64,000 nt of DNA from a filamentous cyanobacterium ESFC-1. GTDB taxonomy: Bacteria; Cyanobacteriota; Cyanobacteriia; Cyanobacteriales; Spirulinaceae. Below, in pieces: positions 6,229-18,359 of the stretch. Below the pieces are notes generated by a model. It was not told where the DNA came from. It searched no databases and saw only the letters and a list, made by a program, of their open reading frames with translations. Location of the stretch: contig KB904821.1 in the NCBI GenBank assembly GCA_000380225.1, positions 62,001-126,000 of the forward strand, in the 5' to 3' direction. The translations under genes were made by a program, and so were the position numbers. Position 1 is the first letter of the stretch. Each line of letters opens with the position of its first letter.

Positions 6229-8793
6229 TCACTTATGCGTCATCGTGTTAATACCATCCCAACTATCCGGGGGGGGAGAATTAAGATACTTTTGCGATCG
6301 CGCAATATGAATAAGAGTAGCGCGGTCTTGCGGATAAAGATCGCGAGCCGCCATAAAGTAATTCAAAGCCTGATTAAAATGCCGTTGATTGTAAGCAGAA
6401 CGGCCTTGGTGATACAACCCCAAAAATGATTCTAACTCGCTATCAACGCGATCGCCCGCCAACCCAATCAACTCATAAATACTCACCGCCTGCGTTTTCC
6501 CCTTCACCCGCGTTTTATCCAACTCCCGCGTAATCAGCTTGTCTCCCCCACACAAATGGCGCGTAAACTCACTGATAATAATGTCGCAGCCGTACTCCTT
6601 CGTCAAACTCTCCAAACGAGAACTCAAATTCACCCCATCCCCAATCGCCGTATAATCCATCCGCTTACTCGAACCAATATTCCCCGAAACCACCTCTCCC
6701 GAACTCACCCCAATCCCAATCCGAATTAGAGGCTGATTCTCAAACAAGCGATTCTTATTAAACTCCACCAAACGGCGACGCATATCCAACGCCGACAACA
6801 CCGACAGCCAAGCGTGATTTTCCTGCAACGGTAACGGCGCACCAAACACCGCCATCAACGCATCCCCAATAAACTTATCCAGCGTCCCCTCATAATTAAA
6901 CACCGCCTCCACCATCGTTTCAAAATACTGATTCAGCAGCGTCACCACTTCCGTTGCTTCCAAGTTTTCCGTCATCGTCGTATAGCCACGAATATCCGCA
7001 AACAAAATCGACACCTCCTTGCGTTCCCCCACCATCAGGGCTTCGTCCCCCAACTCCATCACCCGGTCAGCCACCCCAGGGGTCATATAGCGATACAGCG
7101 TCGATTTCATGCGCTTCTCGCTGCTGATATCCTCCAAAACGACCAATCCCCCCCGCGCCTCCCCTTCCGGGTTAGTCAGAGGATTTACCGTCAAGTTGAC
7201 ATTACGTTCCAAAATCCGCACTTGGTCTGCCGTTAACGTCGCCCCGGTTTGATTCTCCACAGGTTTCTCATTCCAGGGTAAATAAACTTCAGGATTCTCC
7301 CCTTGAGGAATCGCCAGAATAGATGCACTGTCCTGACTCACTTTCGGATTGGTATAAATCCCCACCTTGAGAGTTTGTTCGGGAACATAATGCTTCGCCC
7401 CCATATTGAGGCTATCTTGAACGCGAAACTGAAGATGGTCTACCGGAACCACCTCCCACACATACCGCCCGACAAGCTTGCATTCCCAAAACGACCGCAC
7501 CTTGGGGTTATGAAACTCCGACTCTGGACAGCCCAACAATTCAATCGCTGCATCATTAATCGTGACAATCTTGCCATCTAAATCCGTCGAAATCACCGCA
7601 TCCGATAAACTTTCGAGAATATCCTTTTGATACTGCTTTTCGGTTAAAACCGTTTCAAATAACTTGGCATTTTCAATCGCAATCCCCGCTTGAATATTAA
7701 ACGCCTGCATAAATTCTTCATCAGACGTGGTGAAACTGCCTTGTTCTTTATTAATCAACTGCGTCACACCAATTAACTCACCACTAGAGTTATAAACAGG
7801 CATACACAAAATATTGCGGGTGAGATAACCCGTGCGTTTATCCGCCGATGGGTCAAAACGGGGGTCTTTATAAGCATCAGTAATATTGAGACTTTTACCC
7901 GTCGAAGCCACATAACCCGCAATACCGCGATTCACCGGAATCCGTAAATCCAGAGTTTTTTTGCCATCTGCGGTGTTAACTTTTGTCCACAACTCGCCTT
8001 TTTCTTTACTCAATAACCATAAAGTACTGCGGTCAGCTTTCATCAAGCGCCGGGCTTGTTCCATCACCGCTTTGAGCGTCGCTTCGAGGTCGAGGCTTTG
8101 CCCCAAACTAGAAGTCGCCTTGAGCAATGCCGAAGCCCCCCGTTGATTGCGAGCCGCCATGTAGAAAGATTGGCAAGTTTCGAGGATAATGCCAATCGAA
8201 GACGCAAAATCGTGGAAACGGGCCTCGTCTTCTTCATCAAACGGCACATCTCCCGCTTTATTAAGCAGTTGCACCACCGCCACCACTTGGCCGCGACTGC
8301 TCACAATGGGCATACACAGCAAAGTTTTAGTATTGTAGCCCGGACGCTCGTCAATTTCCGGGTTAAAAATCGGGTGTTGATAAGCGTTAGGGATATTGAG
8401 AGATTTTCCCGTCGCGGCTACATAACCAGAAACCCCCACATTAATCGGGATACGGAGGTCTTTCGGTTCGCCATTTTCTGTATTAACTTTTGCCCAGAGC
8501 AATCCTTTGGTAGAATCAACCAGGAAAATGATCGTGCGATCGGCTTTGAGGATTTGGCCGATTTTCAGGGTAAAGGCTTCCATAACCTGTTCGAGCATGG
8601 TTTCGAGAGCCTCGTTGTTGATCATATCGAGGGCCCGGAGAAACTGCTGAAACTCCGCCGTGATAAAATCCAGCAAACAGATAAACTCGGCAATCGATAA
8701 ATCCTTAACCCGATTGGTTAAGGCATTGGCTCGATTAAATTGTGTTAATTGTGTGAGGGTTGCGAGGATACTTCCCGTGTTGGATAGTGTCAT
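6229..8793 (-). CDS. cyaB: Class III adenylate cyclase, GAF-GAF-PAS-CHD (CyaB type)
   Basis: 854 residues from the ATG at 8793 (an in-frame TTG lies three codons upstream). Domain order is GAF-A, GAF-B, PAS and a class III catalytic domain (about 590-780), then a short TPR-like tail. This is the architecture and length of Anabaena CyaB1/CyaB2 (about 860 residues), whose GAF domains bind cAMP. Both GAF domains end with NK-plus-acidic (NKFDE-like) stretches. Catalytic residues are all present: metal ligands D600 (FADIRGYT) and D644 (FIGDALMAVFG), purine-selecting K640 and T715, and transition-state N722 and R726. K640/T715 indicates ATP rather than GTP. It is predicted to be soluble. The symbol is by architecture; a specific CyaB1/CyaB2 assignment is not possible. 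Confidence 0.9.
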   Translation of the reverse strand: MTLSNTGSILATLTQLTQFNRANALTNRVKDLSIAEFICLLDFITAEFQQFLRALDMINNEALETMLEQVMEAFTLKIGQILKADRTIIFLVDSTKGLLWAKVNTENGEPKDLRIPINVGVSGYVAATGKSLNIPNAYQHPIFNPEIDERPGYNTKTLLCMPIVSSRGQVVAVVQLLNKAGDVPFDEEDEARFHDFASSIGIILETCQSFYMAARNQRGASALLKATSSLGQSLDLEATLKAVMEQARRLMKADRSTLWLLSKEKGELWTKVNTADGKKTLDLRIPVNRGIAGYVASTGKSLNITDAYKDPRFDPSADKRTGYLTRNILCMPVYNSSGELIGVTQLINKEQGSFTTSDEEFMQAFNIQAGIAIENAKLFETVLTEKQYQKDILESLSDAVISTDLDGKIVTINDAAIELLGCPESEFHNPKVRSFWECKLVGRYVWEVVPVDHLQFRVQDSLNMGAKHYVPEQTLKVGIYTNPKVSQDSASILAIPQGENPEVYLPWNEKPVENQTGATLTADQVRILERNVNLTVNPLTNPEGEARGGLVVLEDISSEKRMKSTLYRYMTPGVADRVMELGDEALMVGERKEVSILFADIRGYTTMTENLEATEVVTLLNQYFETMVEAVFNYEGTLDKFIGDALMAVFGAPLPLQENHAWLSVLSALDMRRRLVEFNKNRLFENQPLIRIGIGVSSGEVVSGNIGSSKRMDYTAIGDGVNLSSRLESLTKEYGCDIIISEFTRHLCGGDKLITRELDKTRVKGKTQAVSIYELIGLAGDRVDSELESFLGLYHQGRSAYNQRHFNQALNYFMAARDLYPQDRATLIHIARSQKYLNSPPPDSWDGINTMTHK

Positions 8794-9312: not shown

Positions 9313-12114
9313 CTATTCCATCGCAGCCCATTCCCCCGACGGAATAAACGCCGCCCAAAAATAGGGATGTTGATACCGAGGATGATTCAGCATTTCTAAC
9401 TGCACTTCTCGCAACGCTGCGCTGCGTCCCTCCCCCAACAACAAACGCTGGTAATAATCCACCATCAAATCCTTCGTCCCTTCATCCGAAACCTTCCACA
9501 AGCTAATCAACTGACTCTGGGCCCCCGCAATGGCCAAAGCCCGACGCAAACCATACACCCCCTCACCGTTGGCTACATCTCCCACTCCCGTTTCGCAAGC
9601 CGAAAGGACGACCAACTGCGTTCCCCGCAGATTCAAGCCCGCCGTTTCTAATGCCGTGAGTACCCCATCCTCGTTATGACCGCTAGAGCGAGTATTAAAG
9701 CCTGCCAATGCCAAACCCGAACGTAAAAGCGGATTTTCTTGTTCTTTTGAGGTTATCCCTCGCATTACCACATCCGGGCGACTTTGTACTCCGACAATCC
9801 CGCGATTTTCCCAGGGATTCCCCGTTGGTGCGACTAAATCCACATCCAAGAAAAAGCCGTGGGTCGCGATATGCAGGATTCTGGGGGCTTCTACTTGCTT
9901 AATCGCTTGTTCGGTTGCTTCTAATTGCGTCAAAACCGTAGCATTAGGCAATAAAGGTGCAATGGCTTCGGCTTCTTGGGCGGTTCCGGGTAACTCGTCA
10001 AAACTCAGTCTGGCAATATCGGATGAGCGTTGATTAGTGCTGCGATTGAGAGCAACTACAGCGTTGGTGACACCGGGTTTGTCGTAGTCAGGATTAGCGA
10101 CAATCACTGAGGCTTGACGGGGTTGTTGCGAGTTCTCTAGACGCAGTAAATCTCGTCCGGTGGTGAGGTAAGTAATTTGATAATTCTCCACTATATACTG
10201 GTTATTTTCATCGACTAAAGCGGCAAAGGGAATGAGATTAAGCTGGCTATCGGGAGAAAGCAGAATATGAGTTTTATCGCCTAATTTCGCTCGAATCGGC
10301 TGCATCAGTAGGTAATCGAGTTCGCGGGCGGTTGCTTGTAAGGCACTCAGACTTCCCATACTATTGACGAGGGAACTTTGTAAAGCTTTTGCGGCTTCGT
10401 TGATGGGGGCCGCTTCCCCTAAATCCACCCATTGGGTTGCACCTGTGCCATAAAGAATATAAGCCGCATAACGAGGCTCACCCCATTGTCTTGTTTGCCC
10501 GTCGAAAGGTTCGTAAAGGGTTAATTCCACCAATGCTGCATTCTCTGGAATTTGTTGCTGTACAGTTTCCAGGGTGACGGGTTGGCTGATGGTGCGAAAC
10601 TCCGCACTACGACGGGAAAGTTCGGCTTCGAGTTGGTTGGCTTGGGCTTTGAGGTTCGCGACTTGGGTTTTGTATGCTTCTCCGTCTAGGTTTTCCGGTT
10701 TGTTGTAAATCAGTTGTGCCAGTTGGGTGCGAGTAGCGGCGAGTTGGTCGAGGAGTTGTTGGTTTTCTGGCGTTAAGTTTTCTCGCAGTAGTTGTACATT
10801 ATCGGTGAGAGCGTCCAGAATGCGTCCCTTGCGCCGTAACAGAGTGGTTAATGCCAGTTGTGCAGCTTCGGGGTTGTTGGGGGCATCTTGGAGATGCAGG
10901 GAAATTGCGCCGTGAGTTGTACCGACGAGGGTATTCATGTAAGCCTGTTTTTGGGCTTCTGACCCCGTGGTAAAAATTAGGGAGAGGTTTTCTTCTTCGA
11001 TATCGAGTCCGCGACTGAGGTAATCAATCGCTGAAGTAATGTCTCCTTGAACTTGGTACAGTCCTGCCAAGTTATTGAGGCTAGTGGCAACATTAGGATG
11101 GTTACTACTGTAGACTTGTTCTGAGATAGTCAGAGAGCGTTGATAAAGGGTTTCAGCTTCGCGGTATTTCCCCATCGCTTGGTACAAATGTGCCAGGTTG
11201 TTGAGGTCGATAGCAACTTCTGGATGATTACTACCTAAAGCGAGTTCATCAATGGCTAGGGCGCGTTGGTAGAGGGTTTTAGCTTCGCGGTAGTTCCCCA
11301 TCTCTTGGTACAGTCCTGCCAAATTGCTAAGAGTCGTTGCCATAAGGGGATGGTCACTATCCAAAGTTTGTTCGCGGATGGCTAAGGCACGTTGAAAGAG
11401 GGATTCGGCTTCTGTATAACGCCCCATCTCTTTGTGCAGTAATGCCAAGTTATTGAGGTTGGCAGCAACTAAGGGATGGTCGTCGCCCAAAGTTTGTTCG
11501 AGGATGGTGAGGGAGCGTTGGAATAAGGGTTCGGCTTCACTGTAGTTTCCCATCGCTTGGTACAGGTATGCCAAGTTGTTGAGACTGATAGCAACGTTGG
11601 GATGGTCGCTATCTAAAGTTTGTTCGAGGATGGCTAAGGCACGTTGAAAGAGGGGTTCGGCTTCACTGTAGTTCCCCATCTCTTTGTACAGTAATGCCAA
11701 GTTGTTGAGGGTTTTTGCTAAACGGAGATGGTCGTCGTCCGCATTTTGCTCAAGGATGGTTAGGGAGCGTTGAAAGAGGGATTCAGCTTCACTGTAGTTT
11801 CCTATCTCTTTGTGCAGTGTTGCCAAGTTATTGAGGCTAGTGGCAACGTTGGGATGGTTGTCACCGAGGGTTTGTTCGTAGATGGCTAAAATTTGTTCAG
11901 CAAGGGGTAATGCCGCTTCATATTGCCCTTCCCTAAGCATCTGTGAAACTTGCTGATGAAGACGTTTGGCTTTTTTAAGTTGGTTGATTCTTTGGATAGC
12001 AAGGGTGGGAGTAGGTTCGGTTTGGGCGAGGGTGGGAGGACTAATCAGGTGGAGGCTGAGGAGGAGTAAGCCGCTAGTAAGGTGTTTGAGGGGGTTTTTG
12101 GGGGTTTTTGTCAT
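9313..12114 (-). CDS. Exported TPR-CHAT domain protein
   Basis: 933 residues from the ATG at 12114 (an in-frame TTG is six codons upstream). Residues 1 to about 31 look like a signal peptide (basic start, LLLLSLHLISPPTLAQ). About eight 42-residue kinesin-light-chain-type TPR units follow (LNNLA.LY.EMGNY.EAE pattern), then a helical linker and a C-terminal CHAT domain (about 600-930). The caspase-like dyad is present: H752 in HIATHGFF and C840 in LSACETG, with the usual GLRRALAIAGA and FWAAFIPSGEW blocks. CHAT proteins are caspase-family peptidases or pseudo-peptidases; substrate unknown. The signal peptide suggests a periplasmic or exported role. It is transcribed divergently from the AI-2E permease with no other partner. 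No CRISPR or gasdermin-like gene is near. Confidence 0.9.
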   Translation of the reverse strand: MTKTPKNPLKHLTSGLLLLSLHLISPPTLAQTEPTPTLAIQRINQLKKAKRLHQQVSQMLREGQYEAALPLAEQILAIYEQTLGDNHPNVATSLNNLATLHKEIGNYSEAESLFQRSLTILEQNADDDHLRLAKTLNNLALLYKEMGNYSEAEPLFQRALAILEQTLDSDHPNVAISLNNLAYLYQAMGNYSEAEPLFQRSLTILEQTLGDDHPLVAANLNNLALLHKEMGRYTEAESLFQRALAIREQTLDSDHPLMATTLSNLAGLYQEMGNYREAKTLYQRALAIDELALGSNHPEVAIDLNNLAHLYQAMGKYREAETLYQRSLTISEQVYSSNHPNVATSLNNLAGLYQVQGDITSAIDYLSRGLDIEEENLSLIFTTGSEAQKQAYMNTLVGTTHGAISLHLQDAPNNPEAAQLALTTLLRRKGRILDALTDNVQLLRENLTPENQQLLDQLAATRTQLAQLIYNKPENLDGEAYKTQVANLKAQANQLEAELSRRSAEFRTISQPVTLETVQQQIPENAALVELTLYEPFDGQTRQWGEPRYAAYILYGTGATQWVDLGEAAPINEAAKALQSSLVNSMGSLSALQATARELDYLLMQPIRAKLGDKTHILLSPDSQLNLIPFAALVDENNQYIVENYQITYLTTGRDLLRLENSQQPRQASVIVANPDYDKPGVTNAVVALNRSTNQRSSDIARLSFDELPGTAQEAEAIAPLLPNATVLTQLEATEQAIKQVEAPRILHIATHGFFLDVDLVAPTGNPWENRGIVGVQSRPDVVMRGITSKEQENPLLRSGLALAGFNTRSSGHNEDGVLTALETAGLNLRGTQLVVLSACETGVGDVANGEGVYGLRRALAIAGAQSQLISLWKVSDEGTKDLMVDYYQRLLLGEGRSAALREVQLEMLNHPRYQHPYFWAAFIPSGEWAAME

Positions 12115-12270
12115 GATTTTTGATAAGCCCAAGTGACGCTGGGGTATATGTCTTTGGTGGTTAAGCTTGGGCTGGATTAGGGGGGTTTAACTGTTTTAAG
12201 TTTTGCCTTTTGGGGGATGCAGGGGGTTCGGAAATTTAACTAAAGTTGCTGTAAACTCAGCAAAAGTTAT

Positions 12271-16607: not shown

Positions 16608-18359
16608 ATGGCGGAATATCAATACGAAAGCGTCATTTTTGTCGCCGGAGGCACAGGATTTGGGGCAAGTGTCGCGGCTACCGTGGGAAATGTCGGCATT
16701 GTGGGGAGTTTCGGTGGTGCAAGCTTGGGTTTGGGAGCATTATCTGGGGTGGGCGCTGTCACAGGAATGGCGGCTTATGGTGCGGTAGAGGCGATCGCGT
16801 CGGGGGATAAAACCGCGATCGCGGCCATGGGTTTGGGAGCAATCGGCGGGGCGGGTTTATCTGCGAGTGCGGGGGGTGTTGGTTTGGGTTTTGGGGGAAC
16901 CGCGATCGGGTTGGGGATGGGGTCAATGGCAATGATGGGGGGTGTTGTAGGCTTGGGATTATACGGAATAGCTCGAACCCTCAATAAAGCAGCTATAAAA
17001 GAGTCTCCCAGTCAAGTTTTTGATCGTATGGCGGATAAGATTTTAGATGAGGCGGATTATGCGGAAGCTTACACTGAGGCTTTATTAGAATTAGAAATGT
17101 TATCGCCAAACAGTGTTTTAGGCGAAATACTATGGCGCTCTAAAATGATTGGCTATGAGATTGAGGAAGAATTGCAAGCATTGAAGCAACAATCGGTATC
17201 TATTCCTGAAAACCCGCCAAATCCAGCCACAGAAATTGAATTTGTAGAAGTGCGAGAGTTGCAAATCTGGCAGTGCGATCGCGTCCTCAAACAGCATTTT
17301 GCACCCATTCAATCCCTAGCTTTTCACCCCAATCAGCCCATTTTTGCCAGTGCTGGCGACGATAAAACCATTAATATTTGGGATTTAAACACGAATAAAT
17401 TAATTTATAGCTTCTTCGGACATACTCAACCTGTTCAATCTCTCGCTTTTCACCCTTCAGGCAATACCCTCATTGCCGGAGATTTTAACAATCAAATCAC
17501 AAGCTGGAATCTCCAAACCCGCTTTTACTGCAACTTTGAAAGTCATCGTCGTACCCGTCACGATGGTTTGGTGTATGCTGTTGCTTGTAACCGCAATTAT
17601 GTTATTAGTGGTAGCGCCGATAAAACCCTGCGACTTTGGCATCCTGTAACGGGAAAACTCCTCAAAACGATTCAGGCCCATGAAGGGGTAGTTTGTGCCG
17701 TAACGCTCCATCCTGACGGTAACACAGGGATTACTGGAGGGAGCGATCGCGCTATCAAAATCTGGGATTTAAACCAAGGTCAATTATTACGTCAATTTGG
17801 ACAACATAGCAACTGGATAACAGGAATTGCCCTCACTCCCGATGGTGAAACTCTGATGAGTTGTAGCAGCGATTGTACTATTAAAATTTGGCATTTTCCG
17901 ACCGGGGAATTGCAGCAAACTTTAACTCATCATACCGCCCCCATTTGGTCAATTTCTATTCATCCGAGTGGTTTATTTTTTGCCAGTGCAAGTTTAGATA
18001 ATACCGTTAAAATTTGGCGTTTACCGGATGGAAAACTATTACAAACCCTTGAAGGATTACCGCCTCTTTCTTTTAGCCCTGACGGGCAATTTTTGATTAC
18101 TGCGGGAAAAGGAAATTTTCTCAAAATTTGGCAACAAACCCGTCTCACCAACGCCGAAGATATTCTACAATTTCAGCAATGGTGGGAAGTTTTAAACGTT
18201 GCTCCAGATGCAGTTTTTGAGGAAGTAAAGGCGGCTTATCGTCGTCTGGTTAAACAATATCATCCAGACATCAATTCAACCCCCCAAGCCAAAACCAGAA
18301 TGCAGATCATTAATCAAGCTTATCGCGAGTTTGAGGATAGCTGGTTTAGAGCAACTTAA
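16608..18359 (+). CDS. Glycine-zipper / seven-WD40 / C-terminal J-domain fusion protein
   Basis: 583 residues in three parts. Residues 8 to about 125 are Gly/Ala-rich and hydrophobic with repeated GxxxG spacing and almost no charges, like membrane-inserting glycine-zipper segments; there is no signal peptide. An acidic helical linker (about 130-215) follows. Seven WD40 repeats fill about 225-515 (endings INIWDL, ITSWNL, LRLWHP, IKIWDL, IKIWHF, VKIWRL, LKIWQQ), enough for a closed propeller. A J domain occupies about 523-577 with the HPD motif at 552-554 (KQYHPDIN), which would stimulate an Hsp70. The combination suggests a membrane-associated sensor or scaffold that recruits DnaK. The gene stands alone, with a CCCCGG repeat immediately downstream. 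Function unknown; domain calls are firm, the N-terminal role is inference. Confidence 0.85.
   Translation: MAEYQYESVIFVAGGTGFGASVAATVGNVGIVGSFGGASLGLGALSGVGAVTGMAAYGAVEAIASGDKTAIAAMGLGAIGGAGLSASAGGVGLGFGGTAIGLGMGSMAMMGGVVGLGLYGIARTLNKAAIKESPSQVFDRMADKILDEADYAEAYTEALLELEMLSPNSVLGEILWRSKMIGYEIEEELQALKQQSVSIPENPPNPATEIEFVEVRELQIWQCDRVLKQHFAPIQSLAFHPNQPIFASAGDDKTINIWDLNTNKLIYSFFGHTQPVQSLAFHPSGNTLIAGDFNNQITSWNLQTRFYCNFESHRRTRHDGLVYAVACNRNYVISGSADKTLRLWHPVTGKLLKTIQAHEGVVCAVTLHPDGNTGITGGSDRAIKIWDLNQGQLLRQFGQHSNWITGIALTPDGETLMSCSSDCTIKIWHFPTGELQQTLTHHTAPIWSISIHPSGLFFASASLDNTVKIWRLPDGKLLQTLEGLPPLSFSPDGQFLITAGKGNFLKIWQQTRLTNAEDILQFQQWWEVLNVAPDAVFEEVKAAYRRLVKQYHPDINSTPQAKTRMQIINQAYREFEDSWFRAT

Follow-up and report, generated by a model that had tools for sequence, protein, structure and literature searches.

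What could a protein do that joins a glycine- and alanine-rich N-terminus to a WD40 propeller and a J domain? The question is raised by one gene in a 64,000-nucleotide stretch (the window) of the genome of the filamentous cyanobacterium ESFC-1, for which the original prediction was a conflict-system sensor that frees a pore. The three-part fusion is real, as established by reading of the ORF and by Pfam: the frame starts with ATG, having opened just one codon before it, and encodes 583 amino acids. The stretch between N-terminus and propeller, described beforehand as an acidic linker, is not a plain linker, since profile searches and hhalign reveal that residues ~134-196 are homologous to the alpha4-alpha5 region of Vipp1/PspA. 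The parts of the gene are listed below.

16608..18359, + strand: whole gene, 583 aa; zipper, Vipp1/PspA alpha4-alpha5 segment, WD40 propeller and J domain (Pfam and family alignments)
16629..16982, + strand: Gly/Ala-rich zipper module, residues 8-125, with two repeats (~residues 11-62 and 73-124); probable membrane anchor
17007..17195, + strand: Vipp1/PspA end-of-alpha4 plus alpha5 segment, residues 134-196 (PDB profile search, PF04012 in a homologue, hhalign, conservation)
17268..18143, + strand: seven-bladed WD40 propeller, residues 221-512 (Pfam PF00400, model, Foldseek)
18174..18341, + strand: C-terminal J domain, residues 523-578 (PF00226, E 1.4e-14 over residues 525-578), with the HPD codons at 18261-18269

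The sample used to place this gene comprised 386 genomes of the cyanobacterial phylum, about 31 of which keep the three-part architecture (about 25 with the full architecture and six more with a variant in which the alpha5 segment is reduced). Loss of parts in most homologues would have spoken against a genuine architecture; zipper, WD40 and J parts instead stay joined in most of them. The order of the parts had been said to be undescribed, which holds for the literature searched: no account of the same architecture was found, a search for the zipper together with WD40 or PspA in cyanobacteria yielded nothing relevant, and a plasmid collection gave no match. WD40 genes with DnaJ-domain neighbours are known from a survey of cyanobacteria, the accessible part of which reports an association between neighbours and describes no zipper-alpha5-WD40-J fusion (PMC5587647). 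By the features tested, the protein is both a J-protein and a WD40 protein.

The WD40 repeats form a full propeller, as had been read from the letters. Pfam PF00400 matches seven stretches (E 2e-61), the propeller of the AlphaFold model has pLDDT values mostly >80, and Foldseek places it on solved seven-bladed WD40 structures (7big, rmsd 1.7 Å over 297 columns). The J domain is likewise as described, with an intact HPD at residues 552-554 that is kept in 32 of the 34 family members examined; the two exceptions are truncated in the J domain (L063) or devoid of it (L085). With its HPD intact the J domain looks functional, and DnaK can be accepted as its likely partner. At one locus (L062:4595-7582), a second WD40-J protein of 375 aa, with neither zipper nor alpha5 segment, lies 102 bp after the full-length gene.

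The homology of the former linker is a property of the family more than of the copy in the window. A profile of 24 family segments, from which the zipper was left out, was run against 177,635 PDB sequences; its significant matches were to Vipp1 only (E 3e-11 to 7e-9), over Vipp1 residues 163-217, that is, the end of alpha4 plus alpha5, and the next match, to RNA polymerase, had an E of 2.7. Independently of this profile, the Pfam model PspA_IM30 (PF04012) has matches in two homologues, L011 (model positions 157-213 of 220, E 1.7e-5) and L013 (E 0.0012), while hhalign of the segment profile against the C-termini of Vipp1/PspA gives a probability of 99 and an E of 4e-18. A profile of zipper plus linker, searched across the phylum, matches ORFs of 250-310 aa through the linker part alone, and its match in the window genome is a gene called PspA_IM30 by Pfam, the organism's own Vipp1/PspA. 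The segment of the window copy alone falls below the Pfam PspA model, so that the homology claim rests on the family; this copy is more divergent than most and carries two short insertions. Mean pairwise identity within the family is 0.46 in the alpha4-alpha5 segment against 0.18 in the spacer that follows it, and 0.52, 0.49 and 0.54 in the zipper, WD40 and J parts, respectively. All 33 sequences compared share E188, a residue of the 'EEL..LK' motif at the end of alpha5. One branch (L087, L088, L091, L092 and L093) has only a short alpha5-like end that the linker HMM does not match. In another locus (L083, ORF 6995-8752), a run of ~15 tyrosines, resembling a microsatellite expansion, lies within the segment.

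In Vipp1, the alpha5 helix of one subunit holds the hairpin tip of another (Interface 1). This helix is essential for Vipp1 polymers (PMC8281802). The family has the Interface 1 element, made up of alpha5 and the end of alpha4, but not the core hairpin alpha1-alpha3: only profile positions 157-216 are matched in the homologues. Judged by its sequence, the WD40-J protein is therefore not a PspA, because it has no hairpin; nevertheless, the link of its family to the PspA/Vipp1 family is well supported. In comparison with Vipp1/IM30 and PspA (PF04012; PMC8281802), likeness is confined to residues 134-196, whereas the missing hairpin implies that the protein would form no polymer of its own, and the WD40 and J parts are additions.

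The N-terminus had been characterized as a Gly/Ala-rich hydrophobic segment with GxxxG spacing. Richness (35 G and 23 A in residues 1-125) and a moderate hydrophobicity (19-residue Kyte-Doolittle means of ~0.4-1.3) are borne out, but enrichment of GxxxG is not: the motif occurs 11 times in the zipper versus 9.3 ± 2.2 in composition-preserving shuffles (p 0.29), so that the spacing alone is a composition effect. Conservation tells more, since 11 glycines are invariant among 33 homologues (G15, G19, G27, G30, G49, G77, G81, G89, G92, G103 and G111) and five of these have a counterpart exactly 62 residues further on (15/77, 19/81, 27/89, 30/92 and 49/111), which defines the zipper as a two-fold repeat under selection. 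Its composition makes a membrane anchor probable. The zipper has no match in Pfam, NCBIfam or PHROGs, and its pLDDT is <50 in the AlphaFold model (residues 1-216, shallow alignment).

Homologues of the zipper were found in 14 of 59 relatives. Elsewhere, the module is joined to complete PspA proteins or occurs as stand-alone genes, and a tree of the module keeps its three contexts (stand-alone, with PspA and with WD40-J) largely apart (4 label changes versus 17.8 in shuffles). The zipper can be regarded as a mobile cyanobacterial module of membrane type, common to PspA fusions, co-chaperones and nuclease operons. Stand-alone zippers lie ~40 bp or less upstream of small nuclease-like genes, a pairing that resembles those of conflict systems.

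L104:6630-7414: stand-alone zipper and HNH gene (PF01844, E 3.8e-13)
L108:6683-7285: stand-alone zipper and HNH gene (HNH by sequence)
L112:1255-2020: stand-alone zipper and HNH gene (HNH by sequence)
L110:2064-2885: stand-alone zipper and PD-(D/E)XK-like gene (weak PF08011, E 0.004)
L090:6671-7606: stand-alone zipper and PD-(D/E)XK-like gene (by sequence)
L111:6944-7843: stand-alone zipper and PD-(D/E)XK-like gene (by sequence)
L113:2719-3525: stand-alone zipper and PD-(D/E)XK-like gene (by sequence)

The nuclease-like genes have a common N-terminal motif resembling 'NPLQK..VR..IRD', and the arrangement looks like an exchangeable nuclease behind the membrane-type module. A match of one stand-alone zipper to the pore domain of TcdA/TcdB (E 0.005) is weak and was set aside as composition-driven.

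It is against this background that the sensor proposal has to be weighed, according to which the propeller senses an intruder and frees a pore-forming zipper under the control of DnaK. The nuclease genes (HNH or PD-(D/E)XK-like) adjoining stand-alone zippers favour a conflict or immunity protein, as does the fact that the WD40-J gene is patchily distributed and often broken; yet no defence or toxin genes were found near the full-length gene, either in the neighbourhoods of ~37 loci or, by Pfam, among its neighbours in the window, nor do nuclease- or defence-like genes adjoin it at full-length loci. In addition, PADLOC matches the WD40 repeats only, and both the Vipp1/PspA segment and the linkage to PspA point to membrane maintenance. 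The sensor proposal was thus not borne out; it has little support and is, in our estimation, very improbable. A TPR-CHAT (caspase-like) protein of 939 aa is encoded ~4.5 kb upstream in the window (9316-12132, - strand), and homologous loci give no sign of its linkage to the WD40-J gene.

The WD40-J gene is patchy and accessory. A profile of the Nostocaceae group retrieves four named loci only from a collection of named genomes. Broken copies were encountered at L081, L097 and L098 and, among named Nostoc records, at L116, L118 and L119, two being from MAGs; Nostoc sp. FACHB-152, by contrast, carries an intact copy. Such frameshifted or fragmented copies are recurrent, with the break often within the WD40 repeats, and could reflect gene decay, errors of assembly or on/off switching mediated by the repeats.

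The connection with PspA extends from the segment to whole genes. The same zipper module that the WD40-J protein carries is fused to complete PspA proteins at L024-L026, L086 and L094-L096 (PF04012 E 1e-28 to 1e-47 in the three tested). Within the 386-genome sample, genomes with such fusions contain a WD40-J gene in 4/5 cases versus 27/381 for the others (Fisher p 1.6e-4, with genomes counted as independent and kinship ignored). At L086:5801-7585, the zipper-PspA fusion gene is preceded at 90 bp by a stand-alone zipper gene of the same orientation. Furthermore, in a Nostocaceae-like family (f33), a PspA-like gene precedes the WD40-J gene in the same orientation, at the distances given below.

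L073: PspA-like gene upstream of WD40-J, 14-base overlap
L071: PspA-like gene upstream of WD40-J, 68 bp
L069: PspA-like gene upstream of WD40-J, 737 bp
L077: PspA-like gene upstream of WD40-J, 1409 bp

This linked family was found in 4/386 genomes, each of another genus and always upstream of the WD40-J gene; in a fifth genome (L067), a zipper-PspA gene takes the upstream position, at 296 bp. Three of the linked proteins were tested and match PF04012 over hairpin positions (E 1.6e-13, 2.8e-14 and 5e-18). A strict 'split PspA' model, with the hairpin encoded in one gene and alpha4-alpha5 in the other, was softened: a short motif like alpha5 is still present in the partners, and the strict model therefore does not hold.

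The existence of zipper-PspA fusions would also agree with an origin in which the hairpin was lost from a zipper-PspA gene and WD40-J was acquired, leaving the alpha4-alpha5 piece as a passive spacer that docks on nothing. Variation of the segment in length, its insertions and its near loss in one branch are what such a remnant would display. A passive spacer would not, however, be expected to be far more conserved than the neighbouring spacer and to hold an invariant Glu, nor does it agree with the linkage to a PspA-like partner or with two loci (L061 and L103) that keep zipper and alpha5-like segment without WD40-J. This origin is considered improbable.

A J domain combined with an isolated alpha5 and a module of membrane type points, in the simplest reading, to a membrane-anchored co-chaperone that docks on polymers and recruits DnaK. 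It is on balance probable that the protein is a dedicated membrane-anchored J-domain co-chaperone of polymers of the PspA/Vipp1 family (bacterial ESCRT-III). Anchorage in a membrane, thylakoid or cytoplasmic, would be provided by the zipper; the alpha4-alpha5 segment would dock on the PspA/Vipp1 hairpin tip as the alpha5 of a neighbouring subunit does (Interface 1), so as to cap or tag the polymer; the propeller would serve as scaffold or client picker; and the J domain would stimulate DnaK on the docked polymer, leading to its dismantling or remodelling. That the zipper enters the membrane, that the segment docks, that DnaK is brought to the polymer and that the polymer then comes apart is what we infer. 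Most cyanobacteria lack the gene and several genomes have it in broken form, so it does not encode a general Vipp1 co-chaperone.

The same domain evidence would also fit a membrane-anchored J-protein, general or client-specific, whose propeller picks clients such as photosynthetic membrane proteins and whose alpha5 piece does no more than direct it to Vipp1/PspA-rich parts of the membrane, with Vipp1 as landing site and not as client. Vipp1 puncta hold DnaK2/3 together with membrane biogenesis factors (PMC4297356), and the propeller, to judge by its identity, would offer a large conserved binding surface, both of which agree with such targeting; but it leaves unexplained the constant PspA-like neighbour, wherever that family occurs, and is regarded as not very likely.

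For the dedicated co-chaperone, known systems provide points of comparison. HSP70B, CDJ2 and CGE1 assemble and disassemble VIPP1 in Chlamydomonas (PMC10602608, citing Liu et al. 2005, 2007). Common to that system and the one proposed here would be a J-domain protein devoted to the Vipp1 polymer and Hsp70-driven assembly or disassembly; the former, however, belongs to the Chlamydomonas chloroplast, whereas the zipper-WD40-J family is a prokaryotic accessory gene family. CDJ2 is not known to possess a zipper, a WD40 propeller or a graft of Vipp1 alpha5. With the Vps4 AAA-ATPase of ESCRT-III and with bacterial PspA-associated AAA ATPases, which exist (PMC11237479), the common role would be ATP-driven remodelling of ESCRT-III polymers, but the WD40-J protein would rely on Hsp70, not on an AAA ATPase, and its docking element would be a fragment of the polymer protein itself, not an MIT-type domain.

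How PspA/Vipp1 polymers are disassembled without a Vps4-like ATPase is described as an open question (PMC11237479, PMC8281802). Vipp1 binds DnaK2 and DnaK3 in Synechocystis (PMC4297356), the literature on Vipp1 and DnaK that was searched names no cyanobacterial J-protein for Vipp1, and in a 2026 review CDJ2 is still the named J-protein and the regulation of polymerisation and disassembly is called unclear (PMC13051332). The zipper-WD40-J family offers a concrete candidate for this J-protein, with the putative docking element narrowed to residue level (E188 and the EEL..LK motif), and other laboratories already work with Vipp1 and DnaK proteins suited to testing the candidate role. A bolder form of the proposal, possible rather than probable, is that bacterial ESCRT-III disassembly may here be Hsp70-based instead of relying on Vps4: a membrane-anchored J-protein with a graft of the ESCRT-III subunit's alpha5 would enter PspA/Vipp1 filaments at the domain-swap interface, terminate them and hand them to DnaK, forming in some Nostocaceae-like genomes a small system with the adjacent PspA-like partner.

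Since the window genome lacks both the zipper-PspA fusion and the linked PspA-like family, the client there would be one of its two ordinary Vipp1/PspA proteins or an LRAT-PspA protein. PspA homologues with fusions make up under 2% in a large PSP survey, which includes an NlpC/P60-PspA fusion comparable to LRAT-PspA and whose main text leaves DnaJ, WD40 and zipper unmentioned (PMC11237479). In the LRAT-PspA protein (L029:1099-1779; G000:C1 ~4488596), an LRAT domain (PF04970, E 9e-24) is fused to a PspA hairpin without the C-terminal helices (PF04012 positions 34-117).
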